Source: Sporopachydermia quercuum
Taxonomy: Eukaryota; Ascomycota; Sporopachydermiomycetes; Sporopachydermiales; Sporopachydermiaceae
Assembly: GCA_001599295.1 (NCBI GenBank)
Contig: BCGN01000007.1
Span: forward strand, 1,167,791 to 1,231,790
Direction of reading: 5' to 3'
DNA length: 64,000 bases
Position 1 is the stretch's first letter, and each line of letters starts with the position of its first letter. The position numbers and the translations under genes are program-made. The notes beneath the pieces are model-generated. The model made no database searches, was not told the origin of the DNA, and saw only the letters and a list, made by a program, of their open reading frames with translations. Positions 4,501-44,711 of this stretch are shown piece by piece.

Positions 4501-5725
4501 ATGATTAGAACAGTGTAAGTATTTGATAGTCTTGAACGATTGTGCTAGGAGTTATGAGAACACCACATAGGATTGGTGATATGTTATGGGAAACAGCTAT
4601 CATGTGAGATAGACCGTNTGTTATTGGGGTATGCTCGGTACTATCATACGTAGGTTTTCTATCTCACATGATAGTAACCTATCTTCTAAGTCATATCTTA
4701 TAAACTAATACCAATCCCTTTAACCCATCCAACCTTCAGAATCATGTACTAACAGCTGTAGGAAACCAAAAAACGCAAGATCCAAAAGGGCCTTGGTTAA
4801 GAAGGAATCCAAGATCATCGAAAATACCAAACAGGCACTTTTTGTCCCCGGCTCAACTTGCAATAAAGTTCTTCATGATGTAATGGTCGATTTGGGTGCT
4901 TTGAAGAAGCCTGATATGAAAAGATTCCAAAGAAAGAACGAATTACACCCTTTTGACGATATCTCACCATTTGAATTCTTTTCTGAAAAGAATGACTGCA
5001 GTATTATTGTATTTGGAAGCTCAACAAAGAAAAGGCCGAACTGTTTAACATTTGCAAGGTTCTTCGATTACAAGTTATTTGATATGATAGAACTATTAGT
5101 CAGCGATTATTATCTATTAGCAGATTTTAAGAAGAAAACTTTCACTATTGGTTTAAAACCAATGTTCACTTTCAATGGTACTTTATTCGAAAATAACCCT
5201 ACTTATAAGCATATAAAATCCCTATTTTTGGATTTATTCAGAGGAGAAACAACTGATTTACAAGACGTTGCTGGTTTACAATATATCATTTCAATATCTG
5301 CTTCTGAGCCTGAAGAAGACAAGCCATTACCTCAGATTTATTTCAGAGTGTATTCATTGAAAACGTATAAATCTGGCCAAAAGATGCCAAGGGTGGAACT
5401 AGAAGAGATTGGACCAAGATTTGATTTCAAAATTGGCAGAACACAAGAGCCTTCTTCAGATATGTTGAAGGAAGCTATGAGAAAGCCTAAACAGCTTGAA
5501 CCTAAGACCAAGAAGAATATTAGTACTGATATACTTGGTGACAAAGTAGGACAGGTGCATGTGGGTAATCAAGATTTGGGCAAGCTTCAAACCAGAAAGA
5601 TGAAGGGTTTGAAGAGTCGATATGACCAAGATGGTGGTGAGAATGAGCAGGAAGAAGAATATGAGGAGGTTGACATAATTGAGGAAAACATTCCCAAGAG
5701 CAAGAAGCAAAAGGTTGATGGTTAA
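4501..5725 (+). CDS. RPF2: Ribosome biogenesis factor Rpf2 (Brix domain), two exons
   Basis: Rpf2 works with Rrs1 to bring the 5S RNP into pre-60S particles in the nucleolus. Exon 1 is 4501-4514 (ATGATTAGAACAGT) and exon 2 is 4762-5725; the joined protein is 325 aa. The intron (4515-4761, 247 nt) has donor GTAAGT, branch site TACTAAC at 4747-4753 and acceptor TAG at 4761. Splicing restores the N-terminus MIRTVKPKNARSKRALVKK, which agrees with the S. cerevisiae protein; without splicing no in-frame ATG precedes this conserved part. The Brix core is clear: KKPDMKRF, HPFDDISPFEFFSEKNDCS, FTIGLKPMF and FRGETTDLQDVAGLQ. The tail is acidic and then lysine-rich. S. cerevisiae RPF2 is intronless as far as I recall. 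It converges on MTD1. Confidence 0.97.
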
Positions 5726-6670
5726 TATTATGGAAAAGTAGTATATGATGGGATATGATAGTATCTGAGCTACCAATGTAGTATTCTATTGAATATTCAA
5801 AAGTTAATTCTATAAATAACAATGTGAAGATTTCATCTAGTAAGTTATAAGTAGTTTTACTAATTAATAGCTATCATTATAGGACATTTCACTTGCTCTA
5901 TGATTGTTCTATCGAGATTGATACTTTTAATAGTATATAAGTGTATTATACGAATATAATGAGTTTGCCTACACATTATATATGATTATATTGTAGTATA
6001 TGAAATCTACATATGTTCAATAGCGAATGAATTCTTATATCAAATGAATAGTTTCACTGTATTGTGGAATCAACAAATAAGGTAGATATTAATTAGTAGT
6101 AACTTCAGAAAAATGTTTTATGCTGTTCATTTACTATACTATACAACAAGTATAAGATTAGAAGTGACAACTGTGCAGCAGAAACGTATGATCCGAGATA
6201 CTATCAATTGAAGTGATTGAATACTATAAAAATATCAACTGAAAGTTATCTTATAGTAGTCCATTTATTGGACTACTAAGATCACAACAAACATTCATAC
6301 AAAATATGAAATATAAAATATGAATCGATCTAATGGTATTATTTTCAAATAGTTAACTGCTGCTCATTCCACTATCTGATGGTTTTCGGTTGTTCACAGC
6401 AATCAAAGCAAAACATTCAATCTCCTTTACACTTTTTGTATCTAGATGGTTCAACTGATTACACTAGAAGTATTTATAGATATTTGAAGAGTATCTTGTA
6501 TACGATCATGAACAAATATAATCCATAAATCATCATAAATACTGTTAAATACTGTAATCTGAGTTAATCTGAATCAATTCCAAGAACGTATAATAACAAC
6601 AACAATCAATGTACAATTCTTTTCTCTTATATATCTCTATATGATTTCTGTTTTATTTCCTACAGCTATT
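5726..6670. other. Tail-to-tail intergenic RPF2/MTD1
   Basis: 945 bp between two convergent genes, very AT-rich. It holds the two 3' ends; short antisense ORFs overlapping the RPF2 end are shadows. No gene seen. Confidence 0.6.
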
Positions 6671-7606
6671 CTAACTCTTATCACGTTTCTCTCTATTATC
6701 AATCAATCTCAACAGATTTCTAAGCAACATAGCAATTGTCACTTTTCCTATTGATGGTACATACAACGCAGCCTTTTCCTTAATATCATCATTGAAATTC
6801 TTCTCACTACTAAAATTAATGCAAACTGCTCCATGTTTAACATATTCAGTAGGTAACTTATAACTGCTAGTAGGTACCCCAGTAATAATAACATCTGATT
6901 CTAAGCAAACATCTTTCAATTGAGCATCAGGCAAATCCTCAACATGGTGCTTCTTCAATTTCAAACCTTCTCCACGAGTGAACTTCTGTATACCTGTAAT
7001 ATCAACAGAATACACAACAGCACCATCATTAGCAAGTAGTGCTGCTAATGGTCTACCGACTATCTCTGACCTATTAATGACTGTAACTGTTTTACCATAA
7101 AGACGATTTCCATAAGGAATCAAAGAATTATAAACCCCTAGATATTCCAATATCTTCACATTTGCCAAAGGTGTGCATGGTAAAATAGATTTCTGTGTTT
7201 CTTCTTCATCTAGGAATCTAACGTTGTGATAGAGATTTCTGATGTATGTATGAGACAGCCCTTCAACGTCTTTACCATCAGACAAAAGCTGTTGTAGATA
7301 CTGATCTTGGCCCCCGCCAAAAACAGGGAAATACACCATAATTCCGTCAACGGAGTTATCTTCGTTGGCGTCAATAATAGCTTCTTCCAGGTTGTCTTTT
7401 TCTACTTTTCTAAGCTCGTAGGTGAACCCGGCGGCTTGAGATGTCTTGGCTGTCCATTCTGCATACATTTCTGCTGCAGGGTCATCGTTGGCTAGAAAGC
7501 CAACAATCTTTGGTGATCTTCCTAGAGCCTTCACGCCCTCTTCTATCTCTGTTATAAATGGTTTGGCGATGGTTGAGGCCAAAATGGTTCTTCCCGGCTT
7601 AGACAT
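6671..7606 (-). CDS. MTD1: NAD-dependent 5,10-methylene-THF dehydrogenase
   Basis: Cytosolic enzyme that oxidises 5,10-methylene-tetrahydrofolate with NAD+, supplying one-carbon units for purine synthesis. It has 311 aa against 320 in S. cerevisiae. The start at 7606 gives MSKPGRTILAS, identical to the S. cerevisiae N-terminus. Family signatures are MVYFPVFGGGQDQYLQQL, KSILPCTPLA, the Rossmann segment VINRSEIVGRPLAALLANDGA, YSVDITGIQKFTRG, and the C-terminal GKVTIAMLLRNLLRL. It is the monofunctional folD-related type, with no synthetase domain. The position next to RPF2 matches YKR080W. No intron is needed. Confidence 0.98.
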   Translation of the reverse strand: MSKPGRTILASTIAKPFITEIEEGVKALGRSPKIVGFLANDDPAAEMYAEWTAKTSQAAGFTYELRKVEKDNLEEAIIDANEDNSVDGIMVYFPVFGGGQDQYLQQLLSDGKDVEGLSHTYIRNLYHNVRFLDEEETQKSILPCTPLANVKILEYLGVYNSLIPYGNRLYGKTVTVINRSEIVGRPLAALLANDGAVVYSVDITGIQKFTRGEGLKLKKHHVEDLPDAQLKDVCLESDVIITGVPTSSYKLPTEYVKHGAVCINFSSEKNFNDDIKEKAALYVPSIGKVTIAMLLRNLLRLIDNREKRDKS

Positions 7607-9187
7607 AATGAATAGGTTGTATTATCTCTTTAGCGTACCTGAGTAAAAGCTATAGAAGCTATGTAGCCAGTGGTGGAATTGGAGAGTCAACACAAGACTG
7701 GATTGCATAAAAAGATGTGGAAACTTTAGAAAACAGCTCAAAAGTTGTTGTCACTAGATTTAGTAACTTATAATGAATTATTATGTAAAATAATAAAAGA
7801 TAAGCAGAATGCTCGATGATTTGTTTATCGGATGAATTTTTTTAGGTTTTCGAAAAATTTTCGGTTTAGTAGGAAAGCAAACTTCGGAGACGATTAAGGG
7901 AGATTTGGAGTTGATTTCGGAGAAGGTAGTGGCTGTGCGGAAGGGGTTGGGAGTGTGAAGAGAGAAGAGATTTCAGGATTTGGAATGATGATTTAGATCT
8001 TTGAGTAATAATTAAATATATTCTGCTAGAATTATCAGTGTTTAAGTTGCTTCTACAAATTTGTTCCTATCTCAAGTGCAGGATTAGAAAGTTAAGATGA
8101 CAGTTACAGTAAGAGGGAAACAACTATAAATTCCGAGATTTTGTCAATATCGGAAATTATGTAGCATGTGGGATGAGCAGACTGAGAACATATTTGGAGA
8201 TGATAAAGAAAGAGCATAACGATATTAGAGTGCAATGTATATCAATTGCTGGCTTAATACGATCAGATACACTATGCATGCCGAGACTGTAAAATAGTAC
8301 TTATTAACGATTTGCTCCAACTTAAGCAGCTTGTAGAAGCATAATGGTGAAACAGTATTGAAGCTTGTTACCAAAAAATAGTCTTCTGAATTACCCCCGA
8401 ATTATGAAAAGCAAAAGGAAAACTATTGCTTCCGAAATTTAGTTTTATCCTCGAAATGGCTACTAATCAACAGCTGGATGATAATCTACAAAACGCTCAG
8501 TTGAATCGCTACAATATGCTATTGATGATTTTATGCAAACAAATGCTATTGCTAGGAATGTGAACATAATCGTGTATGAACTACCGAATACGATCGTCAA
8601 CCATAAAACAACGAAGATTAGCAAGAAACAGTACCAATTAATTCCAGAAATAGAACGAAAGCTTCTATATGAATGTGCAGAAATAATTTAACTTATAGAT
8701 CAAGTAGCTCATAAACAATTGTACCCCGTTGACAGAAATGCAAAGTTGCGGCAATTACTCCCATTTTCAGTATTCCCAAGTAAGAAAGTCTGAAGAATGA
8801 CGGGTCAACAACGTAATACGTCAATGTTATGGGCGTACGCATAGTGAAGAGCCAATAATTGTCTATCCTTATACTCAGAGGTCCGAAAATAGTCAGCAGT
8901 AGTAGTTAAAGTAGTCCTGATTCACCCCCGGAATTGTCTGTCCAGAACTTCTTGGTTCCATATCATAGCTCATCTATTACAGGATAAATGTATGTCATTC
9001 AACCTTCTGAACAAAAAGTCTGTATTCTTTGTATTCTCCAGGTAATGGTTAGCTCTAATAAACGTTCACCAGGAATTGATACAACGTTCTTACACATCGA
9101 ATTGGCCTTCCAATACTAGAAACTCATTATCGTATAAAATAAGCAACTCTTTTTTCAATTATTTGCCCATCATTTACATATCGCCTA
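7607..9187. other. MTD1 promoter side and SPC97 3' side
   Basis: 1.6 kb between the MTD1 start and the SPC97 stop. A purine-rich stretch at about 7,880-7,970 could be promoter. No ORF with homology and no convincing donor/branch pair was found. Confidence 0.55.
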
Positions 9188-11665: not shown

Positions 11666-13522
11666 ATTGATTGTTTATGTGAGGCTACCAAACCTTTGGT
11701 AAGGATGAGGAAAAAGAAACACGAGTTCAGGCAGCTGGCAAAATCTTAGTAATAGTAAATATTGATAATTGTCCGAGACGACGTTTAATGTTTCCTAAGA
11801 GATTACTACAATTGAAAGACTGTTTATAAATAAACGATGTATTTAGTTAGGTGATAAATGTGATAGGAAAAGTGGAGAAAATGGTGATTTGGTTTGTTTA
11901 CATTTTGTCTTAAAAAGAGATAGAAACGGAAATGATGTAAAAGAGTGTGCATGTTGGTGCATATTTATGCATATATTATACGTGATTTTACAGAAATTGG
12001 CATAAGGTAGAATATGTGACGCGTTGATAGGTGTTCCAGACTGTCTCCACTGAAAAATTAGCGATTGAAATTGATAAGCATATGGTGATTTCATCATTAG
12101 CTAATAAACTCGATGTAATTTGCTTTAAAAGCAAAGTAGTTCAGCTGAGAAATTTTGAAATAAAATTTTACTGCTTTTACTGCTTTTACTCCTCGGTGCC
12201 TCACAATCTATAACTGATAATGAAATGCATAAGTATGCAGTATCTATCATATATCATGCATGGTTCTACTTTTCTTGCAATGCAGATCTGTGAATTTATG
12301 CGAAGCAATAGAAGACGAATTGGTAGAAAAAGGAGAATAATATATCTTGTAAGTAAGTGATGATTTATACCGTAGATCCTTTGCTTTAAAAACAAAGCAC
12401 TATCTTAAAACTTTGAGCAACCTTCGAATACTAAAAAATCAGGCAAATAACTAATCATTTAGTACTTTGGGGCCTTCTGGGTATCTATGTGTTGTACTGT
12501 GGTAACATGCACTAATGTGTACTATTAACGTTTAATCATGTATAAATCATGCAAATTCATGCATACATCTGCATAAATCTGTACAGTATGTCTTCATAAG
12601 GAGCTATATAATATAATCCGAATTACTTCTAAACCATCTATTAATATTTGAGTTCAGGTACAAGAGGTTAAACCTTTAAGCATACCAGCATGCGATTTGT
12701 CCATTTTCCAATTAATTCAAGAAACTTAATTGATCCGCTTAAGGAGTAATCTTCTAAGAGGTATGTCTTTACTTTTATTCTTGTTTCTATCCTTTTCAAC
12801 TACGATCACACGTATACCCCTCTTCCTCATCTTATCATCTCCGGTATTCCCCTTCTTTCTTACTTAATCTGATCCATGTTCAAAGGGGAGATCCTAAAGA
12901 TCATATCTTCCGTCATCAAATAAGCAATGAACACCAAACGAACAGAAGAGATAAACAAATCAACAGATATTTACATGCTTTGCATAGTAAAGCAGCTATT
13001 TCAATGTACTATTTGATCTGGAACATGCCCGAAAGCCTCTTGGTGATCAATTGAGTGTATGAATGATTGATTGTGGATGTGGCTTCTTCTGGATCTGCTG
13101 AAATTCTGTTCATAGTGGATTGTTGACTGATTGATTGAATGATTGACGAACATTACACCCTTTGAAAGGAGCAAAGAACGAAGTGCTGAAGATTACAGCA
13201 AACAAAGGAGCAAATAGAGCATCTGTCGAGTTATTAGCTGTTATTGGATGGTTAATAGCATAGAAGTATTTTCTAGCTGCATCACTTAGAATAGGACTCA
13301 CTATCGAGCTGCTAAACAGCATAGAAATACAACACAATACAGTACATATTCTTTATTTATTTGATAGCATAAAGACCAACAAAAAAACCTATAAACCACG
13401 CCAAGAGAACCAACACGCTGGGCTCCAGATTATAGATGAAGTAAAACTAGTGCGACGAGACGAAATATATTTAACAAATGGGAACCAGTGATAGGAAATC
13501 AAGTAAGGGGAACTCACCAGAG
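11666..13522. other. Divergent intergenic region SPC97/GYP1
   Basis: 1.86 kb. Open frames of 60-84 codons occur on both strands (for example 11843-12097 minus and 12031-12213 plus) but overlap each other and resemble nothing known. A GTATGT at about 12761 has no branch site behind it. I call no gene here; promoters of both flanking genes must lie within. Confidence 0.5.
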
Positions 13523-16405
13523 ATGGTCCAAGTTTGTATGTGATTTTGCTATTCGCCATTGATTGCTATTTGGGATTGCTGTTTCTTTCTTTCATAAGAA
13601 AGATCTACAGTTTGGTTGAAGTCATCTCGAAAGAAGTATCTTAATATACTAGTATACTACTGAACGTCGTAGTCATGGCTCCTATCATATCACTATAATT
13701 TTGCTATACTAACATTAATATACCGTTAGATCGATCTGATTATATCTTTGATGAACATGGAGGAAAAGGAACTCCAGTGTCGTCATATTTTAAAGAAAGG
13801 TCAGTTTCGCGTGAGTTTGATAGGACTGCGAGCTCTGATGCAATGTATGTCTTTTTGTTAATACTTAGAGATTATAAGGAAGTATAGTAAGCTATAATAG
13901 TAGAATGGGATATAATTGTTTGCGAAGGTTAAAGGACATCTTCAATAGCAGTATGCTATTGCCATAGTATTATGATGGTGTTATTGATGGTATATGTTAT
14001 GAACTGTGACTTATGTGTTGTTATAATTGTTAGTATACAGGTCTAACACGCTACTGCTCACTATTGAATGACATCATCAAAATCCAAATACAATCTATCA
14101 TACAAAAGCATTATCACTATTATTGGCATTGTTATGTTTTTGATGGGTATATTACCATCCTATCATCTTTCTTGTTATACTTCCACGTTTGCATAATCTA
14201 GTTCTAACATTTATTAGTGATGAAAAAGTAATTGGTGCTTCATTTTCGCATGCTGATATTCTACTGCAATCAGGGTATGTATAGCATTGAGAGTTGATGG
14301 ATTGAAGGAATTTACGTGAAATGACAGCAAAAATAGATTTGCTTTATTTGCTGGTATTACAAGAGAACCTGTTTATTTGAAATCACAAGGAATGGTATTT
14401 CTGCGTGTTATTCGTGATCTTTAAATGATTTATAAAAAGAATGGTACCAAAAGTCAGAACATAATAGCAATTGATGTATTAAAGTAAGATGTCAAAAAAC
14501 AGAAAGCAACTGTTATAAATCAACAGTAATTTACAGAGTGGACATTTAATTAAGGAAATCATTTGTGGCGTTATTGTTATTGCTACTAGGTGTCTGTTTT
14601 GTTGATTACAAGTTTGATCTGTCAATTAATAAGAGATTTGCTAATTAATGAATACTTGTCATTTGTTAATTCTGATTAACAGTTTCTAAAAGATTCTTGG
14701 TTATGCATTGATTAGTGCATCAATTCAACAGCATTAATTCATAAAGTGAATTTATGAGAGAAAGCAACATTCAATACTGGAACAGCAACAGAAACTCAAA
14801 AGTTCGTTGACGTTGTTAGTATTTACAATTAATGCTGGCAATATGCTGTTTATGTCAATTCCTGTCAACTCCTTATTAAACACGCTCCTACTTAAATACT
14901 AACCTTCTAGGTCTCTCTCCAACAAAACCCATAAACTCTCACTGAATCCTAAACATAAAAAAGATACTTATGAAGACAGCGACGACGATTGGGACTCAAA
15001 TGTTGATCGGAGTTTGAAATCAGTGAATGCTCCTGCCAAATCAGTAGTAAATATGCCTCAGTTGAAAGACTTGCCAGCAATAACTGCAACAAGATCAAAC
15101 GAAGAAAGGAGACCAATTAACAGAACAAGCAGTGCTAGAAGCTCAAAAGAGATCCATTCTGCTAAATACCTTGTTGAGAGTAGAAGCAGCAGTCTTAGTA
15201 GCAATAACAGCTTTGCTAATAGCACTAGCACTAGTACTAGTAATCAGAATAACAACATCACTATCACCAATAATTCCAGTCCTACAGGCAATTCCAACTC
15301 TCATCCTTCTAATATTTCGGGTGTCAAAAACTCAATCGATGGTATTATCAAAGACCCTTCTTCGCGTCTACAGAAAAGCTATACTTCAATAGCATCAGCA
15401 GAAAAGAAAACATATGCAGAAGTAGAAGAACTGAATGCCAAGATCGCCAGATTCACCAAATTCAAAAATGTCATCAGCGCCAATAAAGTAGATTTAAACG
15501 AGGTTAGGAAACTTGCTTGGTCTGGCATCCCCGACGCTTTAAGACCTGTGACTTGGCAATTGCTACTTGGCTATTTACCTACAAACAGCGACAGAAGAGC
15601 GTCCACTCTTGCTAGGAAAAGGAAGGAGTATCTTGATGGTGTTGAACTGGTGTTTTCCTCAGAAATGGATCAGACAACTTGGCATCAAATAGAAATCGAT
15701 GTCCCTAGAACAAATCCTCATATTAAACTATATAGCTATCCTACGACTCAAAAATCACTGGAGAGAATACTGTACCTATGGGCTATTAGACACCCAGCTT
15801 CTGGGTACGTCCAAGGCATTAATGACCTAACTACACCTTTTTTCCAGACGTTTCTATCGTGCTATATAAATGAAGACCCAGAAAGCTACGACCCGGGTCA
15901 ATTGCCGAAAAATGTGCTAGATGCCATCGAAGCGGACACCTTCTGGTGTCTTTCCAAGCTGTTGGAAGGCATACAGGACAATTACATTCATGCCCAGCCA
16001 GGGATTATTCGCCAGGTAGCGGAGCTAAGAGATTTGGTGAGCAAGATCGACCCCGAGCTGGTGCAGCATTTTGATCAGCAAGGCATTGAATTTATACAGT
16101 TTAGTTTCCGATGGATGAACTGTATGCTTATGAGAGAGCTTAGTTTGAAAAGTAGTATTCGGATGTGGGACACGTATATGTCTGAAGGTTCTAATGGGTT
16201 TTCAGCGTTCCATGTTTATGTGTGTGCAGCATTTTTAGTTAAATGGTCTGATGTGTTGATTGAGATGGAGTTTCAGGAGATATTGATGTTTTTGCAGGCT
16301 CCGCCTACTGGGGATTGGACTGAGAAGGACATTGAGTTGTTGTTGAGTGAGGCATTTATGTGGCAGAGTCTGTATAAGAATGCGGGGGCTCATTTGAGGT
16401 CCTAG
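13523..16405 (+). CDS. GYP1: Rab GTPase-activating protein Gyp1 (TBC domain), four exons
   Basis: GAP for Ypt1/Sec4-type Rabs in Golgi traffic. Inferred exons are 13523-13535, 13730-13844, 14218-14274 and 14911-16405, giving 559 aa. All three donors are GTATGT. Branch sites are TACTAAC (13707), TTCTAAC (14202) and TACTAAC (14897); acceptors are TTAG, TTAG and CTAG; all phases agree (1, 2, 2). Exon 4 holds the TBC domain with the arginine finger in IDVPRTNPH and the glutamine finger in YVQGINDL, plus LPKNVLDAIEADTFWCL, FIQFSFRWMNCMLMREL and the C-terminal DWTEKDIELLLSEAFMWQSLY. EDSDDDWDS matches the DLDEDWSA stretch before the S. cerevisiae TBC domain. Exons 2-4 are well supported. The 13-nt exon 1 (MVQV) rests only on an ATG, a perfect donor and phase. 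The orthologue YOR070C is intronless as far as I recall. Confidence 0.9.
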
Positions 16406-19032: not shown

Positions 19033-22000
19033 ATGGACTCCGTTATCAGCTTCAAGCTCTTCAACGGGACCCATCCGACAGTGGATATAAGCCATTCCTG
19101 TTTCGTTATGCAAACAGATAACGGGAAACGCCATTTGTTCGGGAAAATTCCCGAAGGAGTCCAGAGATCTCTTTCAAGGTCGGATGCGAAGATGGGGAGG
19201 ATAGAGAACCTCTTTTTGTCGGGCCAAGTCAATGTGGGCTCCATCGGCGGCCTCGCGGGGTACATTTTGACGGCTGCTGACAGGAAACTGAAGAAACTGC
19301 GCTTGGTTTCCGGCAGCAACGATATAGAATATGCCTGTGCAACCTGGCGATCTTTTGTCTTCCGCAAGGGCTTGGATCTCATAACTGACGTTCCCAGCAG
19401 GCACAGTGCTTTTATAGACGACCATATGGCCGTGGTGCCCGTGAAAACTGGTTTGCTTTCTATTGTCGATTTTAACGGTAACCACGACTCGAAAAACGTC
19501 CTTCAGAATATCCTCAGGTCCATGTTTCCTACAGACGATAATACCAATCGAGGAGCTGTTGATGTCAACGAGTTTGGTGAACTGGCAACGGTAGAACTAC
19601 GCAACGAAGAAGAAGCTATGGGCGCCAATCTACGGCATCTGCCTTTCTATCAGCCAGACGGAATATCTACGAGCTATATTATACATTTCAAGCCGGCGAG
19701 AGGCAAATTTCTGCCTGCGAAGGCCAGGAATCTCGGGGTTCCCCCAGGGCCGTTGTATGGCGAGCTTAGCATGGGAAAAGACGTGGAGTTAGCTGATGGC
19801 NCCGTTGTGAAGTCTCGCGATGTTGTCGAGCCTCCGCGGCGCTANTTGCGGGTTCTTGTCGTTGATGCTGTTGATGACGACCATTTAAAGGAAATCATGG
19901 GCATCAGCGTGTGGAATAAAGGTATTGAGATCGATTTAAGCGGTGACAGCAGCAGCAGCACTGCCAACAAAGGTTTCAGCAGTGAAAACGCATTCAGAAA
20001 CATCCAATTCACCAATACAACAGAACCTGTCGGCCTGGTATACCATTTCCTGGGGGAGAAAGTCAATATCTTCAGCCCCGAGTATCTGGAATGGATCAAA
20101 TCGTTTGGCGATGGGTGCCAGCATATAATTGCTCATCCTATATACAGTGCCAACAGCATTAACTATCATTCGGCGGCCAGGTTGTGCCAGAAGCTGAATT
20201 CTGTCCAACCAGACCAGTTTCCTGTGCCGAAATGCTCTCCCGCACGAGAGGATTTCCAGCGAAGATTAAAGGAGTTTCTGGCAGAGAATAAGGAGGAATT
20301 TGGGGAAAGCCTGTGTGAGAGAATAATGCTGATGGACTCCAGCACAGACTTTGTAGTGAATCCTGGCGGAGAGAAGGTTGGCGTCAGCTACGGGAAACGG
20401 TATTCTGACGATCTTGACGAGTATTATGACAATTTGAAGGAGGAAGAGCGAATCAAAGAGGCTGATAGAAGTGGAAATAGTAGCAGAAATGGTAGAAATG
20501 ATAGGAATAGCCGAGAAAGCAGTAGAAGCAGCGATGAGAAGGAGAAGAATGTTATGAAAGAAGCTGGCGATGCTACGACAGCTGATAGTAGCGGATCTAC
20601 TGGCAAATCAATTGCAGCTGTTAGTTCTATTATCAGCTCTTCTGCTCTTGATCCGGCTGTTGATTCTACTAATTCCACCAATCCCACTATCAAACCTTCT
20701 AATTCTCCTGCTAAACCTATTGATTCCATCGCATCTACTGATAGACAGCTAAATTCCAGTCCTGCTGAAACAACTGCCAGCGCTGTCGGACCCTTTGAAG
20801 CCTCAGAAAATCCTATTTCCTCCACTTCCCCTAATTCTGCTGCCCAATCGGAAAATCCTCTCTTCCAGCCGGTCCCCCAATCTGCGCAATCGGCCCTAAG
20901 TCCTGCTACTGACGAGATGGCGCTGGAAAACCTGGTGGAGGTCCTCACGCTGGGNACCGGCAGCGCTCTTCCTTCAAACTACCGCAACGTCTCCGGGACC
21001 ATCGTCCGGATTCCCATTGGCACTGCCGGCAAGTCTTCCACTACCGCCATTGACTACACTTCCGTAGTGCTGGACTGCGGAGAAAACACCCTGGGGACAC
21101 TCCTACGCTTCTACGGTGAATCCCAAACAGAAGCTTACCTGCTGGAAGTCCATACACTGTTTCTAAGCCATCTCCATGCCGATCACCATTTAGGGTTTCT
21201 GGGGCTAATCAAAAAATGGACAGAGGTTCACCGGAAACATAAAACGGCGAAACGGCTGTTGATGATCGGTCCGTTACAGTATAATGCGTTTTTAAAGGAA
21301 TGGATTCTGCTGGAGAAGGAAGCAGGCTTAGAAGCGGTTGACTATTTATGTGCGGACGAGCTTTTAGAGCAGAGAAATACAAATAGCAGTAGCAGCTTTA
21401 ACAGCTTTAACAGTAGCTTCAACAGGAGCTTTAATGCTCATAACCATACTAATAACCATACTAATAACTATGCTAACAACCACACTAGCTATCTCCAACA
21501 AAGACTGGCTATTAACAACCTAACAGCCATCAAAACTGTCCGCGCCATTCACTGTTTTTTCTCCTATTCCGTCACCATCGACTTCCGTGCTATCAACGGG
21601 AAGCTCTTCCGAGTCTCGTATTCTGGTGATACTCGGCCTAACATGTTTTTCTCTGCCGTGGGGAAAAACACCGATCTCCTCATCCACGAGGCCACCCTGG
21701 AAGACGCGTTGAGGAAAGATGCCATTGCCAAGAAACATTCTACATTTTCGGAGGCTCTGGCGGTAGCTAAGAGCATGCAGGCCCGTTATACGGTGCTGAC
21801 GCATTTCTCGCAACGGTACCCCAAGCTTATGAGGTGCAGCGGAGCTTCTGGCGATGCCCCCGATGCGTCAATTGCCTCGGAAGAGCTGGAATCCATGCCA
21901 CTGATGTTCCAGAGGTTTCTGGGAGTCGANGGGCGCCAGGAGGGCAAGGGCATGCAGCGGTATATCAATCTGGCGGAGGACATGAACATAGCGTATGCAT

Positions 22001-22644
22001 TTGACGGCATGAAGGTGAATTTGAACGATATCGCTGCTCAGAAGGACTGTTTGGACGAGCTGGAAGCAGCTTTGAAAGACGCCGTGCGAAGCGACAACGA
22101 GGACAGCGAAGGGGAGAGAGAGAAAGAGAAAGACCAAGAAAGAGAAAGAGGAAAGAAAAAGACGGAAAAGAAGGAAAAGCAGGCAAAGAGGGAAAAGAGG
22201 GAAAAGAAGGAAAGAACTGGGAGTGGGAATGACAATGGAAGGGTGAGGAAAGAAGCAGCTAAACACCATGACAATAAAAACATCATTAACAGCAATAATA
22301 ACAGCAATAATAACGACAGTAATAGCACTAGGATCAAGGTGAAGGAAAACAAGAATAGAAGCAATAGAAACAATGGCATTGTTCTCAGCAAAAGAGCCAA
22401 GCTGAATTCAGGCTATAAAAGCATTAATAACAAAAGCAACACCGAAACCATGTGGAAATCTCTTAACAGCAATAATGAGAATATAAACTATGGGCTGAAC
22501 GCCGGCAATTGTAGCAGTGGCAGCAATGGAAACAGCAGCAATTCTAATGACGACAGTGAAGAGATTTACTTCTCTGAGGCAACAATAATCAAATTGCGGA
22601 AATATACAGATAGGAACGCTGAAGCGGATGCTGGCAGTGTTTAA
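19033..22644 (+). CDS. TRZ1: tRNase Z, long form (3' tRNA processing endonuclease)
   Basis: Removes 3' trailers from nuclear and mitochondrial pre-tRNAs. The ATG at 19033 gives 1203 aa, starting MDSVISFKLFNGTHP at the same place as the S. cerevisiae protein (838 aa). The N-terminal half is the degenerate metallo-beta-lactamase domain of long tRNase Z. A Ser/Pro/Asn-rich linker (about residues 470-630) follows. The catalytic half has LGTGSALPSNYRNVSGT, the zinc motif HLHADHH (713-719), YSGDTRPN, LLIHEATLED and LTHFSQRYPK. The tail is Glu/Lys-rich, then Asn-rich. The same frame is open for 80 codons upstream (from 18793) with an Arg/Lys-rich, acid-free stretch that looks like a mitochondrial presequence but has no ATG. 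Undetermined bases at four sites keep the frame. YKR079C is syntenic. Confidence 0.96.
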   Translation: MDSVISFKLFNGTHPTVDISHSCFVMQTDNGKRHLFGKIPEGVQRSLSRSDAKMGRIENLFLSGQVNVGSIGGLAGYILTAADRKLKKLRLVSGSNDIEYACATWRSFVFRKGLDLITDVPSRHSAFIDDHMAVVPVKTGLLSIVDFNGNHDSKNVLQNILRSMFPTDDNTNRGAVDVNEFGELATVELRNEEEAMGANLRHLPFYQPDGISTSYIIHFKPARGKFLPAKARNLGVPPGPLYGELSMGKDVELADGXVVKSRDVVEPPRRXLRVLVVDAVDDDHLKEIMGISVWNKGIEIDLSGDSSSSTANKGFSSENAFRNIQFTNTTEPVGLVYHFLGEKVNIFSPEYLEWIKSFGDGCQHIIAHPIYSANSINYHSAARLCQKLNSVQPDQFPVPKCSPAREDFQRRLKEFLAENKEEFGESLCERIMLMDSSTDFVVNPGGEKVGVSYGKRYSDDLDEYYDNLKEEERIKEADRSGNSSRNGRNDRNSRESSRSSDEKEKNVMKEAGDATTADSSGSTGKSIAAVSSIISSSALDPAVDSTNSTNPTIKPSNSPAKPIDSIASTDRQLNSSPAETTASAVGPFEASENPISSTSPNSAAQSENPLFQPVPQSAQSALSPATDEMALENLVEVLTLXTGSALPSNYRNVSGTIVRIPIGTAGKSSTTAIDYTSVVLDCGENTLGTLLRFYGESQTEAYLLEVHTLFLSHLHADHHLGFLGLIKKWTEVHRKHKTAKRLLMIGPLQYNAFLKEWILLEKEAGLEAVDYLCADELLEQRNTNSSSSFNSFNSSFNRSFNAHNHTNNHTNNYANNHTSYLQQRLAINNLTAIKTVRAIHCFFSYSVTIDFRAINGKLFRVSYSGDTRPNMFFSAVGKNTDLLIHEATLEDALRKDAIAKKHSTFSEALAVAKSMQARYTVLTHFSQRYPKLMRCSGASGDAPDASIASEELESMPLMFQRFLGVXGRQEGKGMQRYINLAEDMNIAYAFDGMKVNLNDIAAQKDCLDELEAALKDAVRSDNEDSEGEREKEKDQERERGKKKTEKKEKQAKREKREKKERTGSGNDNGRVRKEAAKHHDNKNIINSNNNSNNNDSNSTRIKVKENKNRSNRNNGIVLSKRAKLNSGYKSINNKSNTETMWKSLNSNNENINYGLNAGNCSSGSNGNSSNSNDDSEEIYFSEATIIKLRKYTDRNAEADAGSV

Positions 22645-31251: not shown

Positions 31252-33053
31252 TTAGTTCTTAGGAGGATTATAAAAGATCTTTCTAGTCTTTATTGGGGCC
31301 CACTTCCACTTCTTGACAGCAACACTAAGACCATAGAGAACAGTTAAGACAATCAATACTTTTATACCTGCTCTCTTTCTATCGTCATGTTCTGGTTCAG
31401 CTGCCCAGTTTAAGAATGTGGTAACATCCTTTGCCATTTGAGAAGTAGTAGCAGGTGTGCCATCTTCGTACTCAACTAAACCATCAAATAACACTCTTCC
31501 CATCGCAATTGATCCACCAGGGAAGTAAGGGTTATAGTTGGATCCTGGGGGTAATTGGATACCAGCTGGTGGGTCTTCAGGATAACCAGTTAATAAGGAA
31601 AAGATATAATCACATGCACCATGACGAGCTTTAACGATAAGGGATAAATCTGGTGGGAGAGCACCTTGGTTTGCAGCTCTAGCAGCTTCTTCATTAGGAT
31701 AAGGTCCTGGAATGTAATCAGACAGCTTACCAGGTCTCTTATTGATGTTACCTTCATCATCAGGATCATCGTCATATTCGAATTCTTCGGCCATGGCACG
31801 AACTTCAGCGTTAGTGTGGGAAACACCAACCAAAGTTCTCCAGGCGACTCTGTCTAACGAATGACAAGCAGCACAGACCTCTCGGTAGACTTGATATCCT
31901 CTTCTGATTGATGCATGGTCAAAGGATTCAAGCATACCGTTGTGAGGCCAGTCGTAGCTAGGAGGATGCAATCCGTGTTCAGCAGCTGTCATGGCATCAG
32001 CTCTGTTTTCCATGGCAGTGAGATAGTAGTAGTAAGAGGTTAAACCAGTTAATGCAACACCTGTTCCTACCATCTTTTTGGAGAGCTTTGATGCTTCAGC
32101 GGCATTTTTGGCGCTGGTTGAGAAGGCTCGCTTTGTAATGTTAGTATAATCAAAAAATATAATATTTCATTACTGTTCTTTTAAGCATGAGCAAGGTATT
32201 AGTAGGTAGCGTATATGTAGTGCTGAATGAATGAGAACTGTTGCTGAAAGGGTTTTGTGAATTGATAAAATCCATATACATTGCTGTAAAAGTGTTTTTA
32301 TAATTTTTTGTCTTTGTAGGGTATAGTTATCTGACATAATTACATTCATATTCGGCATAGAGGTATCATAGGTATCCAGGATGTTTATTCAGTCGAATTA
32401 AATCCACCGAAAATGTACCAAATAGAAAAAAGAAATAATGATGCCGTAGAAGAAAACCATAATGCATTTATCGAATTCAGTGATGTTCTCCATATACTAC
32501 ATTTGTTGATGTATCGGTTTGACGCACTAATTAGCACATGGGCAGTATCAATTCTTTAAGTACCTCTGTCATTCTATCATTCTGTCATTCTGTCAAATCT
32601 CGTCCCTGGTTACTTTGAAAGACTTTTTTTTATAATTGATTCAATTATAAACGTAATAAATCATTGAGCATTACAGTTGGATCATTACAATTCACCTTAT
32701 TACATTTCTAAGCCTTCCAATCATCATTTCATCTTTCAAACACTGTAGTAATCATTACTGCCCATAACTGTGTATATCATAAAATATTCTCAACAATTCG
32801 AATTTCCAAAGAACAACGCTTGCTGAAATAATTCCCCTTTGAATGCCATTATATTCTGGCTTGCTCATCGTCCTTGCTGACAGTCAAACACCAATCGTCA
32901 ATACATTTGTCTACCATCCTCAACCACAGACTCATTACCTATCCTTTTTCACAGTTCTACCACACCGCTACTACGCTCCACAATGCACCTTCTTATTGAA
33001 CAACAATTACTTACTGATGAAGCCTTCAAAGCAGAAAAAGTATTCTTGAACAT
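31252..33053 (-). CDS. CYT1: Cytochrome c1 of respiratory complex III, two exons
   Basis: Haem subunit of the bc1 complex in the mitochondrial inner membrane; passes electrons to cytochrome c. Exon 1 is 33053-33015 (MFKNTFSALKASS) and exon 2 is 32130-31252; 305 aa in total (309 in S. cerevisiae). The 884-nt intron has donor GTAAGT (33014), branch TACTAAC (32146-32140) and the unusual acceptor AAG (32131). The join gives a classical presequence, ALKASSRAFSTSAKNAA, then a hydrophobic sorting signal. The haem motif CAACH is at 99-103, followed by SLDRVAWRTLVGVSHTN; PPGSNYNPYFPGGSIAMGR holds the axial methionine; one C-terminal membrane helix follows. The gene is YOR065W in S. cerevisiae, without an intron as I recall. 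Confidence 0.96.
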
Positions 33054-37080: not shown

Positions 37081-37890
37081 TCACCAAGCGTCTTTAGGAT
37101 TCTTCTTGTATTCATCGTAATCAGCTCTGTTGAACGCTGATAGTTCAGTTTCGTTTTCGACACCATAATCGCGTAAAGTCTTATTAGGATCGGAAAGAAT
37201 CCATTCTTCGTCATTCTCAAAATTGATAATGAGGTTCATAGACTGTATGATAAGTTAATATAGGTTTATAGTAAACGATAACGATGTATGTATGATGCAC
37301 ATAACTGTAGTTCTAATGTGATACACAATCACCAGCTCCCAATCTATTACATACCTTTGTTCCATGTGCCTTGGTATATATTTTAATAGTGTCTAAGTTC
37401 ACATTCCTGTAAGGCCTATAAGCAGCTTGCGTTCGAATAACTGGTATGGTTTCGCTCGTTAGTAAAAAAAAGTTCCAACATATTAATACTCCCTACATAA
37501 TAGAACCAAAAAAAAAAAAAAAATCCTGAGAATCATTTCCTCTCCTTCCTGCGATATCAAAACATACTGTATTTCACTTTCTCCAATAATTCACCTGCTG
37601 TAGTGTCCAGTAAATCAATGTCTTTCAACACTATATTCTTTTCGTTTCTGAAGTGAAAGGATTTGATAATCCGCACTGTAATGATAGCCATAGAAGCTAT
37701 GATGAGTTAGTTTCTGCTCGGAGATTCTTGGATTAAATGTAGAAATACAAAATGGTGATGCTGCTACCAACATATACGGTAAATAAGATACCGTCTGTCT
37801 AATATCTGCCTTTTGATTCAACTTCTATCACATACCTGGTCTTACAGTAGATGTAAGTGGCTCCTCCAAGTTCATTTCTAGATCAGCCAT
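37081..37890 (-). CDS. UPF0538 family protein (human C2orf76 homologue), four exons
   Basis: Function unknown; a small ubiquitin-like-fold protein family. Exons on the minus strand are 37890-37836, 37696-37568, 37440-37355 and 37242-37081; 143 aa. All three donors are GTATGT. Branch sites are AACTAAC (37712-37706), TACTAAC (37464-37458) and TATTAAC (37260-37254); acceptors TAG, CAG, CAG; phases 1, 1, 0 all agree. The joined protein matches human C2orf76 from memory along most of its length: ITVRIIKSFHFRNEKNIV (human ITVRLIRSFEHRNFKPVV), YRPYRNVNLDTIKIYTKAHG (PPPFRNYKYDALKIIHQAH), and DYDEYKKNPKDAW at the end (DYKNYKANPISSW). No single exon gives an ORF long enough to be noticed. I know no S. 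cerevisiae orthologue. It lies between the YNG1-like and alpha-actinin genes. Confidence 0.92.
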
Positions 37891-38708: not shown

Positions 38709-40775
38709 ATGGATGGATTAGTTGATCTAGAACCAGTAGGGGAGCATTGGGTAGATTCCCAATATCGGATGTGTGTACGGTGGGTGAACGTGCAGCTTGC
38801 TGGAATCAAAGACTATGAGCCTGTCGAAGACCTCAAAAACCTGAGTGATGGCGTAAGACTAATACAACTCCTAGAGGTTCTTTCGAAAGAACGATTAGGT
38901 AAATACAATACTAAGCCCAAGCATAGATTCCAGAGAGCAGAAAATATAAACATTGCTATGGAATTCATGAAGTTCAAAGATATCCACCTTTACAACATAG
39001 GTACTGAAGATATAGTGGAAGGAAACCTGAAGCTCATCTCAGGAATGATATGGCTGTTAATCCTGCGGTATACTTTGAACGATATAACCAACAATACTGA
39101 TGGAGATTCTGCTCGCNATGCACTTCTGTTATGGTGTCAAAAACAGGCTGTTGATTATAAACCTTTGGTGGATATCAAAGACTTTTCAGTGTCTTGGAAA
39201 GATGGTCTGGCGTTCTGTGCCCTATTAGACCATTGTAGGCCTGATCTCATTGATTTCAAAGCACTGGACCCAAAAGACGTGAAAAACAACTTGGAGTTGG
39301 CTTTTGACATTGCTACCAAACAAATAGGTGTACCAAAACTGATAGAAGCCAAGGACATCTTTGATGTTGATGTTCCAGACGAGAGAATGATAATGACATA
39401 TATTGCATATTGGTTCCACGAGTTCTCGAAACCAAAAGTGATAAACACGTCAGCGAAGATGATTGAAAAGTTCATGGAAGGCAGAAAAACTATACTGGGC
39501 ATGCAATCAAACTTCGAGCAGAAAATAAGGGACCTGATGGAAGAAATCAATCAAATGATCATTAAATGGAACAGCATATCTTTGACTCAGGACTATAAAG
39601 AAAGCAAAGAGATAGAAAACGAATTGAAACACTACAGAGCTACTGTGAAAAGAAGTTGGGTTAATGGAAGAAGCGAACTTATTTATCTATATACAAACAT
39701 TCAAACCAAGCTGACCACGTATGAGATAAAACCTTATCAACCACCAAGCGATGCCAATTTAGACGTTCTGGCTGATTCATGGAAGACTCTTCTTGCCGAG
39801 GAAAGAAACTTTTCCCATGTGATCAACGAGACTCTGAGAGTGATTAAGGAAGAGCTGAAAGTGGAATTTGCATCGCTGGCCAATGAAATAGGTGAATCTC
39901 TTGAATCATTCATTCAAAGAACAAACCAACTGAATGGAGACCTGTCTGAACAGCTGGAGATGGTTGATAAGTTCAACGGAGAACTACGTCATTTCGGCCA
40001 AATGCTCAAGGATCTGAAAACAGTAGATAATAGTTGTAAAGATGCACATATTGAAGACAACGACTATACGATATATGAGTATGAGGACCTGGAATATGAA
40101 TACTCTTTGGCTAAACAGTCATTATTAAGGAAAGTGCAGTTCATTGAGAACCAAATGATAGCAAGAGATATAACAAGTTTGACGCCTGCGCAGTTGGAAG
40201 ACTATGAATCTAGCTTCAGATACTTTGACAGGGATAAGAAGAACTCGTTGACTTATGCTGAATTCCTAGATGCTTTACGAGGTTTAGGAATTATTGGAAC
40301 TGAGGAAGAATTACTGGAAATGTTCCTGATAGCATGTTCAGAAGAAGGCGGTGACGAAGGTGGTGATAATAGTAGCGCCAACAATAGTGCTGATGATGCC
40401 ATCAATGATTCTTCTAACAGTGTTGCAGAAGTTAGTACTGAAACAGAAGAGAATTCACTCAAGGACGCCTTACCCTCGGAAGAAGAGGTTGCTGATATGA
40501 TAAAAAACAAAACGGTAAGTTTCGAGCAGTTTATCAATCTGATGATAGATCTGCATGAGGATGATTTAACTGTGAGAGGCATAAAGGCGTGCTTTGTAGA
40601 GCTTGCTAAAGGAAAGCCATTCATTACAGAGGTAGAACTGAAGAGTAGTTCAGTGCCAGAACCTGTGATTGAAGCTATAAAAGAAGTTACACCAGTACTA
40701 AAGGATTCTTCTGGTGACGAAGGATATAACTATGTGAGCCTATTGGACCAGCTACAAAGAACAAGTGTAAATTAG
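38709..40775 (+). CDS. Alpha-actinin (two CH domains, short rod, EF-hand region)
   Basis: Actin-filament cross-linker, the counterpart of S. pombe Ain1. The frame is open from upstream, but the first ATG is 38709 (MDGLVDLEPVGEHW); 688 aa. CH1 (about 15-125): MCVRWVNVQLAG, LSDGVRLIQLLEVLSKERLG, then GTEDIVEGNLKLISGMIWLL. CH2 (about 135-245): LLLWCQKQ, VSWKDGLAFCALLDHCRPDL, PDERMIMTYIAYWFHEF. This is the tandem, spectrin-type CH order, unlike fimbrin, which has four. The rod (about 250-490) fits one or two spectrin-like repeats. The C-terminus is calmodulin-like: FDRDKKNSLTYAEF, whose loop lacks the usual glycine and may not bind calcium, then an acidic insert and a second EF-like pair. S. cerevisiae has fimbrin (Sac6) but no alpha-actinin. 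One undetermined base near 39116. Confidence 0.93.
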   Translation: MDGLVDLEPVGEHWVDSQYRMCVRWVNVQLAGIKDYEPVEDLKNLSDGVRLIQLLEVLSKERLGKYNTKPKHRFQRAENINIAMEFMKFKDIHLYNIGTEDIVEGNLKLISGMIWLLILRYTLNDITNNTDGDSARXALLLWCQKQAVDYKPLVDIKDFSVSWKDGLAFCALLDHCRPDLIDFKALDPKDVKNNLELAFDIATKQIGVPKLIEAKDIFDVDVPDERMIMTYIAYWFHEFSKPKVINTSAKMIEKFMEGRKTILGMQSNFEQKIRDLMEEINQMIIKWNSISLTQDYKESKEIENELKHYRATVKRSWVNGRSELIYLYTNIQTKLTTYEIKPYQPPSDANLDVLADSWKTLLAEERNFSHVINETLRVIKEELKVEFASLANEIGESLESFIQRTNQLNGDLSEQLEMVDKFNGELRHFGQMLKDLKTVDNSCKDAHIEDNDYTIYEYEDLEYEYSLAKQSLLRKVQFIENQMIARDITSLTPAQLEDYESSFRYFDRDKKNSLTYAEFLDALRGLGIIGTEEELLEMFLIACSEEGGDEGGDNSSANNSADDAINDSSNSVAEVSTETEENSLKDALPSEEEVADMIKNKTVSFEQFINLMIDLHEDDLTVRGIKACFVELAKGKPFITEVELKSSSVPEPVIEAIKEVTPVLKDSSGDEGYNYVSLLDQLQRTSVN

Positions 40776-41158: not shown

Positions 41159-42270
41159 TCAAAGCTTGCGTGACTTAATATACTCATGCTCCATTGCTTC
41201 TTTGGCAGTCATTCGCTCTTGATGATCGTATCTCAATAATTTATCGACAAAATCAATAGCAGTAGGTGTTGCTAGCTTCATATTGGATTCAGTGATAAAT
41301 CTTTCCCATGGTTTCCTTGCATATGCACCTAGAACATCGTCATATTCATCACTCAAGGTCACATTATACTTCTTAATATACTTATATAAATCATCTGTCC
41401 CTAAAACCTTGGCAATTTTAACTAACTGATCTGTGTTGGAGTTACCCCGAAAAAAAGGTTCTCGTTGGAAGATTATAGCTGCAACCATTGCACCTAAGGA
41501 CCATAAGTCTAAAGAGTAATCGTATTGTTGGAAGTTAACCAAGAGTTCAGGTGCTTTATGATATCGAGATGCAACACGAACATTATACTCTGTTTCAACA
41601 TGATAAAACTCAGCTAGGCCCCAATCAATCAATCTTAGTTTCTTTTGTTCTGGGTCAATCATGATATTCTGGGGCTTAACATCTCTATGCATGATCCCCA
41701 TAGAATGACAGAAGTCTAGTGCGACCAATAGCTCATGAACATAGTATTTGATATCTTCAGCTGTGAATTTGGGATATAGAACTCGGAAATCAACGTTGTT
41801 TACTTTTTCGAATATCAGAGCAGGGATTTTACTTCCGGGGTCTCGTACTATATCGAGTAGTTCAATGATATTGGGTCCCCCCGATAGATTTTGAAGAATT
41901 TTCACTTCTCTGAGGATTTTCTTACTTTTCACTGGCTTGAGGACTTTTATTACGCACGGCTCATCATCTAAAAGATGAATTCCTTCAAACACTTCGGAGT
42001 ACTTTCCCCTGCCTATCTTTGACACGATTTCGTAGTTGGAAATGGTTCCCCAATCAATTATGCAGTCGTCTATATTCGTTAGCATATCATACTTTATTAA
42101 ATAGTTCGTAGAGTTGTAGTCACAGCATGGAATGAATACTTGGTACTTCTAGAGCATAAGAGACAGAAATACTTACCATAATGCCAATAACTCTTGGGTT
42201 TCTTTTCGTTAGCATCAGCATATATCCGAGCTCGAGAAGCAACTCTCCCGTTTCCTCCACCTCCAGACAT
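41159..42270 (-). CDS. CKA2: Casein kinase 2 catalytic subunit, two exons
   Basis: Ser/Thr kinase CK2 alpha' with broad nuclear and cytosolic substrates. Exon 1 is 42270-42177 ([20 protein letters not shown]...) and exon 2 is 42069-41159; 334 aa (339 in S. cerevisiae). The 107-nt intron has donor GTAAGT (42176), branch TGCTAAC (42084-42078) and acceptor TAG (42070). The join gives [20 protein letters not shown], matching EYWDYEQGVTIDWGKISNYEI position for position, so the junction is firm. Kinase motifs: GRGKYSEVF, catalytic [17 protein letters not shown] (DWG instead of DFG is the CK2 hallmark), RYHKAPELL. The basic substrate-binding cluster VKPVKSKK is present. CKA2 (YOR061W) next to SLD7 (YOR060C) is the S. 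cerevisiae order, which favours CKA2 over CKA1. Confidence 0.96.
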
Positions 42271-43554
42271 ATTTTTAATGGGTTTCTGTCGTGAAGATAA
42301 CAGCACTATAAATACACTGAATGGATCTCAATGTCCTTCTGTTTCGTTAAGTATCACAGTTGGAGAGCGTAGGGTGCATTTAACTGTTCTCAGTGATAGA
42401 TCAATTAGTTGGTTTAAGCAAATAATAAACACAACAGGTATTTGCTTGATTTTATACAATTTCCCGTTTCTGCAATTATTTAGTTAGTAAATCTAATTAT
42501 AATGATTTAATACTATACTGTGAGCACGATACACCTACCTAGCCAGTAGGTATAATGGCAAACAGAGTGATAGATCTCCTAAATTTCGGCCTAGAGCTAT
42601 TAAGAAAATCTGCATTGCCCTTGTAACATGTCCTACCTACCAGCAATTCTCTGATCTAGTATTATATTTACTTACCTATTAGCAATCTATAATACACGCT
42701 TGATCAAATACCTGAGGCTGCACCTGTCACCTGTCAAAGAACCTGTATTCTCTAAGAACCTGGTAATTTAGGTAGAGAAACTGTGCTTTTATTAGCCCTG
42801 GCTAATACAAAAGAACTACTAGTATCGAATTAAACACTTGAGCTGTAAATACTGCTATTTTGATAGCAAACCAAAAGATATTTGTATATTTGATAATTGA
42901 TTATTAATTGATTATTGATTACACTAGAAGCACTGCTCCTTGAGCCATTTAGTAAGAGAAAAGAACGATGCTGATTGTAAGCATTCCAGCAGCTTTTTCG
43001 TTTTGTTTTTGTAGTGTTTTTCTTATTTCTTTTGTTTTGCAGTTTGTGTGAGAAGGGCTTTAAACCGTGGGGGAGTCACATGAGATAAAGATGAGATAAT
43101 TTCCGGTTTTTAGTTCTGTTTGCTGAGGATGGTTTGTCATTTATGATTACGTAACGTGTTTTGAGAAATCATTTTTTCGATTAGCTAATCGGAAAGTAGT
43201 TATAGAACAGTTCAGTAGAATGATTGTGAGAGTCGGATAGAAGATCCAGTACCGGCTGACTTGCAATGATCATTCATCTGATAGAAATGAGTGGGAAGAT
43301 CAAGATGGTCTAATTAATGAATATACTAGCAGGATATATGCTGTTATTTGACTGTTTTGTTGGACGTTGAGGGAATTGGCAGTGTGGGTTTTCTCTCGGT
43401 TGTCATATGAAAGATTTAGTGATTCTGTGTCGCGTCTGGACAATATAATGTCTATACTATGATGAACTTGAATAAATTGTAATATATTAATTGCGGCAAT
43501 CATAGCACTATTGGTTTTCTGTTATTTGGCTATTAGTCTAACTGATAAACCCCA
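42271..43554. other. Divergent region CKA2/SLD7
   Basis: 1.28 kb with both promoters. Contains several repeats of ACCTGT near 42,720-42,760 and a GTAAGT on the minus strand (about 42,690) with no partner. No gene seen. Confidence 0.55.
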
Positions 43555-44711
43555 ATGACTCAAAAGAGTCAGTGGGTTTTACAAGGTGAAGTTTCCATTG
43601 TGTTCCCACAGACGTTTAAGCAAATAGATGCTAATATCCAGACTGAAGCTTTGAAAGGTAAGTGCTCGCTGAAGTGTCTTTTACTCGGATTTATTTAAAC
43701 AAAAGAAGTTCATTCTAACTGGTGAGTATTAGGTATCAAAATATCAACACGACAAAAACGACATGCAGGTTTGGAGTTCCTGAAGGAAGGTTATGGTGAA
43801 CTGGAAGCACTATGTTACGTGAATCCATTGAAAATCCCTATATGTACCATGGCAAGTGGTCCTATTTTAATGTAAGTGCTAGATTTCGTGAATGAATAAG
43901 GAGTGGCTATATATGAGCTGGTTCTAACAGCAGATATTTTACTAGTGATTTGGAAAGCGAACACAGCAAAGACTACTTTGAAACCATGATGGAGTTCGCC
44001 GATGTTAACGACGACTCGGATATTCTCACGTTGGCTCTTTTAGTGAGAGAAAGAGCCGCCGCTAATGACAAGAAAGTAAACTCGTTGCACCATTTTGTTT
44101 TTTATATGGAAGTAGATGAAGAAATGGTTGTGCGGGTGATGGCATTTATATTAGGAATTTCTAAGGAAGTGAGTGATATAGCAGCCGATGTCCAGGAAAC
44201 GAAAGATGTTAAAGTGAAAGTGAAGAAAGAGGAAGTAGAAGGATCAGATAGAATGTTGTTTGGACAGTCACAGAGATCTTTTTCGAGGTCCCAATCATTT
44301 TCCTCTCAGTTGCCGTCAAATGATATACCTGAATCCAATATCAATCCTAAGACAAAATACTCAATTCAACAGCTAATTCTAGGAGGGTTACGGCTACAAG
44401 GTGTTACTAGCGAAGATCCAGACTATAAAGGATTATATCATAATACATATCGATCTGTGCGTTTTGCATTGGTAAGTTGTTCTCTTTTTGCTGTTATATG
44501 CAGACTATTCTATCGTTCTGTTTAAAGAACGTAGTGCTAACGTCATGATTAGAGAAAGCGCATCAGCCAACCAACAGCAATTCCTATATCTGATCTCCAA
44601 GAGATCGTGGAGACATTTCTCTCTCTTTTCCTTGGTACTGAGACCGATCAGCAGCTATCTACCTATGAGCTTGGTCCTGATAAGAAACGAACACTTCCAA
44701 GGCCATCTTAA
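43555..44711 (+). CDS. SLD7: Replication initiation factor Sld7, four exons
   Basis: Sld7 binds Sld3 and helps load Cdc45 at origins. Exons are 43555-43657, 43733-43871, 43946-44471 and 44553-44711; 308 aa (257 in S. cerevisiae). All three donors are GTAAGT; branch sites are TTCTAAC (43713), TTCTAAC (43922) and TGCTAAC (44535); acceptors TTAG, CTAG and TTAG. Introns are only 74-81 nt. Phases 1, 2, 0 agree throughout. The conserved C-terminus appears only after the last splice: YSIQQLILGGLRLQGVTSED (yeast LSKLILGGLRLRGISNS), then SDLQEIVETFLSLF (yeast SLQETVETLLKLF). The N-terminal part is more divergent. YOR060C beside CKA2 is syntenic. An upstream CTAAC at about 43,533 hints that a further 5' exon is possible, but the ATG at 43555 is sufficient. 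Confidence 0.93.

Follow-up and report, generated by a model that had tools for sequence, protein, structure and literature searches.

The share of intron-containing (split) genes differs widely among described budding yeasts (Saccharomycotina). The figures published with the genome of Geotrichum candidum CLIB 918 (Morel et al. 2015, PMC4479816) are 287 split genes out of 5,769 in Saccharomyces cerevisiae, 984 out of 6,580 in Yarrowia lipolytica and 2,415 out of 6,804 in G. candidum, with 0.05, 0.17 and 0.56 introns per gene, respectively. The Yarrowia share is given as 15%, and a review sets the shares at 3–5% in Saccharomycetaceae, 6–7% in the CTG clade and 10–15% in methylotrophs, and credits Lipomyces genes with about three introns each. 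In Trichomonascus vanleenenianus, 1,706 of 6,306 genes are reported as split, which amounts to 25–27% and is worded as nearly 25% in the paper itself (PMC13130702). These systems are compared here with a stretch of Sporopachydermia quercuum DNA of 64,000 nucleotides (nt; contig BCGN01000007.1, positions 1,167,791 to 1,231,790; hereafter the window), in which twelve candidate introns were placed in six genes: RPF2, GYP1, CYT1, a DUF2340 gene, CKA2 and SLD7. They are very probably ordinary U2-type spliceosomal introns of a budding yeast that reads CUG as leucine (CUG-Leu), and whose lineage kept more ancestral introns than S. cerevisiae did.

In the window, 17 protein genes could be counted from Pfam matches and gene models. 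The preliminary description had announced twelve introns in six genes, with about a third of the genes spliced, and both statements are borne out by the rebuilt models, in which the frames are open and free of internal stops and one intron (DUF2340 intron 1) is optional. Six of the 17 genes (35%) are split, with 0.71 introns per gene, or 0.65 when the optional intron is omitted, while a strict count of genes with at least one junction demanded by homology gives 4/17. The window was chosen for looking intron-rich, and the following P values are uncorrected for that choice. The binomial probability of six or more split genes among 17 is 1.2e-4 under the S. cerevisiae share, 0.031 under that of Yarrowia and 0.60 under that of Geotrichum; for four or more, the S. 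cerevisiae share gives 0.0087 and the Yarrowia share 0.24. An intron density far above the S. cerevisiae norm had been claimed, and the contrast is real (P about 1e-4), but the surprise was overstated, as shares reach 35% in Geotrichum. S. cerevisiae is the wrong yardstick because intron-rich Saccharomycotina have already been published. Values reported up to those of Geotrichum and Lipomyces therefore place the window within the known range, and the finding is an ordinary one among intron-rich budding yeasts; a few junctions need refinement in annotation.

The density in the genome as a whole could nevertheless be lower if introns are concentrated locally in the window, within a genome of middling share (e.g. 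10–15%), an explanation compatible with the retention of ancestral introns. Under shares of 13–15%, six split genes of 17 have a probability of 0.017–0.031, in a window picked for its introns, and the strict count of four fits such shares well (P = 0.17–0.24). However, up to three introns in each of three genes would be out of the ordinary if most split genes had a single intron, as in Yarrowia, for which 1,119 introns in 984 genes are reported (PMC4479816). Such a local concentration is possible, though on balance we doubt it.

Among the described systems, G. candidum resembles the window in several respects. As published, 35% of its genes are split too, and its gene density (2.7 per 10 kb), its coding share (44.9%) and its 0.56 introns per gene are close to the values found here. 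With 47% of its sequence coding and a density likewise of 2.7 per 10 kb, the window matches the less compact, intron-rich yeasts. The two differ in GC content (48% in Geotrichum versus 37% in the window) and in median intron length (71 versus 133 nt). T. vanleenenianus and Y. lipolytica, as described in PMC13130702, are likewise intron-rich Saccharomycotina with spliceosomal introns; they differ in their GC content of about 49%, and in Yarrowia by the lower split share mentioned above (the total given in that paper being 6,449 coding sequences). Likeness to the Saccharomycetaceae, as reported by Hooks et al. (2014, PMC4202332), lies in the TACTAAC-type branch motif and the GTATGT donors, and the review states that S. 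cerevisiae introns occur mostly in the 5′ part of the coding sequence, as they do here. Saccharomycetaceae differ by their 3–5% of split genes, whereas in the window half of the donors read GTAAGT and the branch motif lies very near the acceptor.

All twelve donors conform to GTA(A/T)GT (six GTAAGT and six GTATGT) and all introns end in AG. Donors outside the five junctions fixed by homology were picked for consensus, and this uniformity is therefore partly built in. The branch motif is CTAAC in 11 introns and TTAAC in one, and it stands 2–14 nt from the acceptor triplet in 11 of the 12, with a median of 6 nt. Donor, branch motif and the restoration of the protein at five junctions together point to U2-type spliceosomal introns. 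The pre-mRNA would be cleaved at GTA(A/T)GT, the branch would form at CTAAC and the exons would be joined at an AG located a few nt downstream, and the short spacing between branch and acceptor may reflect an acceptor choice of the U2AF1 type. The donor base at position +4 is the same within each multi-intron gene: all introns of GYP1 and DUF2340 start with GTATGT and all those of SLD7 with GTAAGT, which is also the donor of the three single introns in RPF2, CYT1 and CKA2. A uniform +4 base across all three multi-intron genes arises in 6 of 924 arrangements, a pattern spotted post hoc.

Junctions differ in the evidence that fixes them. Homology demands five of the twelve, namely those of RPF2 and CKA2, DUF2340 introns 2 and 3, and SLD7 intron 3. 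The RPF2 intron (4515–4761, forward strand) is 247 nt long, with donor GTAAGT, phase 2, branch TACTAAC and acceptor TGTAG, and after its removal the protein can be aligned with the solved RPF2 chain 3jct_v from the first residue on (MIRTVKPKNAR). An acceptor at the AG that immediately follows TACTAAC was rejected, as two residues would then be inserted; with the AG after that one, the protein reads MIRTV-KPKNAR, identical to 3jct_v. The same intron contains a perfect 17-nt inverted repeat (4597–4613 and 4658–4674), whose pairing could fold the intron and bring donor and branch closer together, and a single N base at 4618. In CKA2, the intron at 42070–42176 of the reverse strand (GTAAGT, phase 1, branch TGCTAAC) is supported by the casein kinase chain 12sa_A, which aligns ungapped across the junction.

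The DUF2340 gene (also C2orf76 or UPF0538), located on the reverse strand, has its intron 2 at 37441–37567 (GTATGT, phase 1, branch TACTAAC) and its intron 3 at 37243–37354 (GTATGT, phase 0, branch TATTAAC). Once spliced, it matches the Pfam domain with 174 bits over positions 1–120 of 120, compared with 74 bits over 68–120 for the last exon alone. Candidate intron 1, with corrected coordinates 37697–37835 (GTATGT, phase 1, branch AACTAAC), is optional because an ATG in the next exon yields the whole domain without it (174.3 bits). If this intron is real, the acceptor CATAG is preferred over CATTACAG (173.6 versus 170.3 bits). The fifth junction demanded by homology is that of SLD7 intron 3 (44472–44552, forward strand; GTAAGT, phase 0, branch TGCTAAC), where splicing raises the Sld7_C match from 35.7 to 69.8 bits.

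Six further junctions (GYP1 introns 1 to 3, CYT1, and SLD7 introns 1 and 2) are supported by open-frame continuity. The GYP1 introns, on the forward strand, all have GTATGT donors and lie at 13536–13729 (phase 1), 13845–14217 (phase 2, branch TTCTAAC) and 14275–14910 (phase 2, branch TACTAAC). The N terminus that they assemble gave no family match. Gene ends proposed earlier were kept in the rebuilt models, except that GYP1 can start at 13478 instead of 13523. The single CYT1 intron (32131–33014, reverse strand; GTAAGT, phase 0) spans 884 nt and falls within the mitochondrial presequence; exon 1 brings no gain in alignment score (516.9 versus 516.8 bits). A permissive Rfam scan of the CYT1 gene and its intron returned one sub-threshold match to a small nucleolar RNA (E = 0.16). 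In SLD7, intron 2 (43872–43933, forward strand) has 62 nt, donor GTAAGT, phase 2 and branch TTCTAAC. Intron 1 of the same gene (43658–43732, forward strand; GTAAGT, phase 1, branch TTCTAAC) has alternative acceptors at 43768 and 43726, all three in frame, and its acceptor was chosen by the distance from branch to acceptor only; protein homology does not discriminate at introns 1 and 2 of this gene. Acceptor 43732 is likelier than 43768 because the latter sits 46 nt past the branch motif while the other 11 acceptors lie within 2–14 nt; with 43732, this sole outlier in spacing disappears.

The strength of frame continuity was gauged with dinucleotide shuffles of the upstream sequence, the last 40 nt being kept, with 200 shuffles per gene. 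Three-intron chains with matching signals and phase appeared in 0/200 shuffles for GYP1 and 0/200 for SLD7 (whose chain passes through 43732 by the acceptor rule of the test). Chains of two or three introns were equally absent from the 200 shuffles of each of GYP1, DUF2340 and SLD7, and a two-intron chain was obtained once in 200 shuffles of CKA2. Single-intron chains occurred in 4–18% of shuffles across the six genes, so that phase alone proves little. The earlier statement that each join restores conserved residues or keeps phase implied otherwise.

These results also bear on the possibility that several introns are false and that translation begins downstream, at 15053 in GYP1, in exon 2 of the DUF2340 gene, in exon 3 of SLD7 and at 32073 in CYT1. 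In-frame downstream ATGs are indeed present, GYP1 can be read from 15053 as an intronless open reading frame of 450 amino acids, and 32073 is the first ATG of CYT1 exon 2. The frequency of single-intron chains in shuffled sequence agrees with this explanation, and codon-usage scores of the short exons do not discriminate, as undoubted long exons score only 0.02–0.10 per codon and some real exons fall below 0. Against it stand the three-intron chains of GYP1 and SLD7, found in no shuffle, the five junctions that homology demands wherever the gene begins, and the presequence that CYT1 would lose if started at 32073. We regard downstream starts as very improbable. Gene finders tuned to few introns are likely to truncate RPF2, CYT1, CKA2, GYP1 and SLD7, and to miss or split the DUF2340 gene.

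Whether the introns were kept or gained had been left undecided in the preliminary description; retention combined with some loss probably explains them better than recent gain. Nine of the twelve introns interrupt the coding sequence within its first third (P = 0.004), a count unchanged with the corrected acceptors, as do eight of 11 without the optional intron (P = 0.009). This 5′ bias is the pattern expected if loss mediated by cDNA spared 5′ introns, and it is an indirect sign of retention. The same direction is indicated by the lack of similarity among the introns and by published ratios of loss to gain: in Saccharomycetaceae, loss is reported to exceed gain by two orders of magnitude (PMC4202332), and a survey describes a bias toward loss across fungi with few inferred episodes of gain.

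The opposing explanation holds that the introns are real and were mostly gained recently, through introner-like copying, tandem duplication or break repair. It can draw on the three genes (of six) that carry up to three introns each, and on the +4 donor base, which could mark an origin gene by gene; as noted, that pattern was recognized post hoc. Secondary gain has moreover been inferred in four saccharomycetous yeasts by one survey. However, comparison of the 12 introns with one another found only matches of 12–25 nt, and comparison with the rest of the window found none apart from their own hairpins; introner copies were rejected on the shortness of these matches. Flanking microhomology extends over 0–4 nt across the 12 introns, or 0–5 nt when acceptor 43732 is used, compared with a maximum that averages 2.7 in sets of 12 random pairs. 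The longest is at SLD7 intron 1 and measures 4 nt, or 5 nt with acceptor 43732. Insertion by repair with flanking duplications was rejected because microhomology is confined to this range. The rarity of gain relative to loss reported for Saccharomycetaceae adds to these arguments, and mostly recent gain is judged quite unlikely.

Several points weigh against ordinary introns retained from an ancestor. One is the picking of consensus donors wherever homology did not fix the junction. A second concerns the splice signals themselves, as 5′ sites and branch points are described as poorly conserved in Geotrichum (PMC4479816) and are strict in the window. The 5′ bias may, in addition, partly reflect how introns get noticed, and a single window that looked intron-rich, with 12 introns, may not represent the genome.

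The position of the lineage was approached from the proteins of the window. CTG aligns with leucine at seven of eight sites and with phenylalanine at the eighth, in UPF1, CYT1 and CKA2 alignments inspected by eye; a CUG-Ser or CUG-Ala code was rejected on this count. Gene structures of relatives were also sought in collections of viral and prokaryotic contigs, with CKA2 exon 2, RPF2 exon 2 and alignments of CKA2 and CYT1 in one, and with UPF1 and the CYT1 alignment in another; no relative turned up, an outcome that carries no weight for yeasts given what these collections contain. Over 253 columns, CYT1 is 82% identical to the S. cerevisiae chain and 79% to 7rja_D, which we take to be from Candida albicans, these two being 82% identical to each other; phmmer scores are 517 bits for the S. 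cerevisiae chain, 496 for 7rja and 475 for the Yarrowia chain. The SPC97 protein scores 261 bits against 9h9q_C, presumably a Candida chain, versus 187 bits against the SPC97 chain 5flz_A. Gene order in 1–48969 for the most part follows the S. cerevisiae blocks YKR079–082 and YOR060–070 combined, with SPC97, the DUF2340 gene and alpha-actinin interposed. The lineage could belong to the intron-rich families that branch early or, though this would be less expected, be related to the Phaffomycetaceae, in which exon junction complex genes are reported to have been retained unexpectedly. The latter report, CTG as leucine and the gene order are the pointers behind a bolder proposal, which is that this yeast branches near the Saccharomycetaceae (e.g. 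among or near the Phaffomycetaceae) with a split share like that of Geotrichum, the deep intron losses of the Saccharomycetaceae and of the remaining crown clades being separate and late. We hold this to be unlikely, if conceivable. A lineage so placed would help to date intron loss in budding yeasts.

The other protein genes counted are MTD1, an SPC97-type gamma-tubulin complex gene, TRZ1, VPS5, an ALG6/ALG8 gene, an alpha-actinin gene, UPF1/NAM7, a WSC-domain gene, a gene with a weak PHD-finger match below cutoff and one with an AreA-type GATA-like domain. Gene names that go beyond the domain labels from the searches are partly tentative. The open reading frame at 2–3004, also among the 17, gave nothing significant in Pfam, NCBIfam or a search of solved structures, and its reading as NUP133, which the searches did not confirm, is an assumption guided by position. 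The alpha-actinin-type gene (38709–40775) encodes two CH domains and EF hands; its best matches among solved structures are putative calponin-homology proteins, followed by alpha-actinin-2 and alpha-actinin-like protein 1. S. cerevisiae is not known to have an alpha-actinin. Literature searches found nothing on alpha-actinin together with Saccharomycotina, and nothing relevant on introns of RPF2, CYT1 or CKA2 in yeast.

Two long stretches, 48970–55096 and 57953–62374, contain no recognized protein gene. A codon-usage scan, weak enough for genes to have been missed, marked six coding-like segments outside the known genes, the longest of 255 nt. At gathering thresholds, Rfam reports two tRNAs only. 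The tRNA at 54095–54189, within the first of these stretches, was called tRNA-Stop by ARAGORN, and its sequence reads more like that of an intron-bearing tRNA-Phe (GAA). Isolated single N bases occur at 28 positions of the window (e.g. 674, 4618 and 19801), none of them at a junction. The TRZ1-like gene (19033–22644), of some 1,200 codons, contains long stretches of low complexity and has a GC content above the window average.

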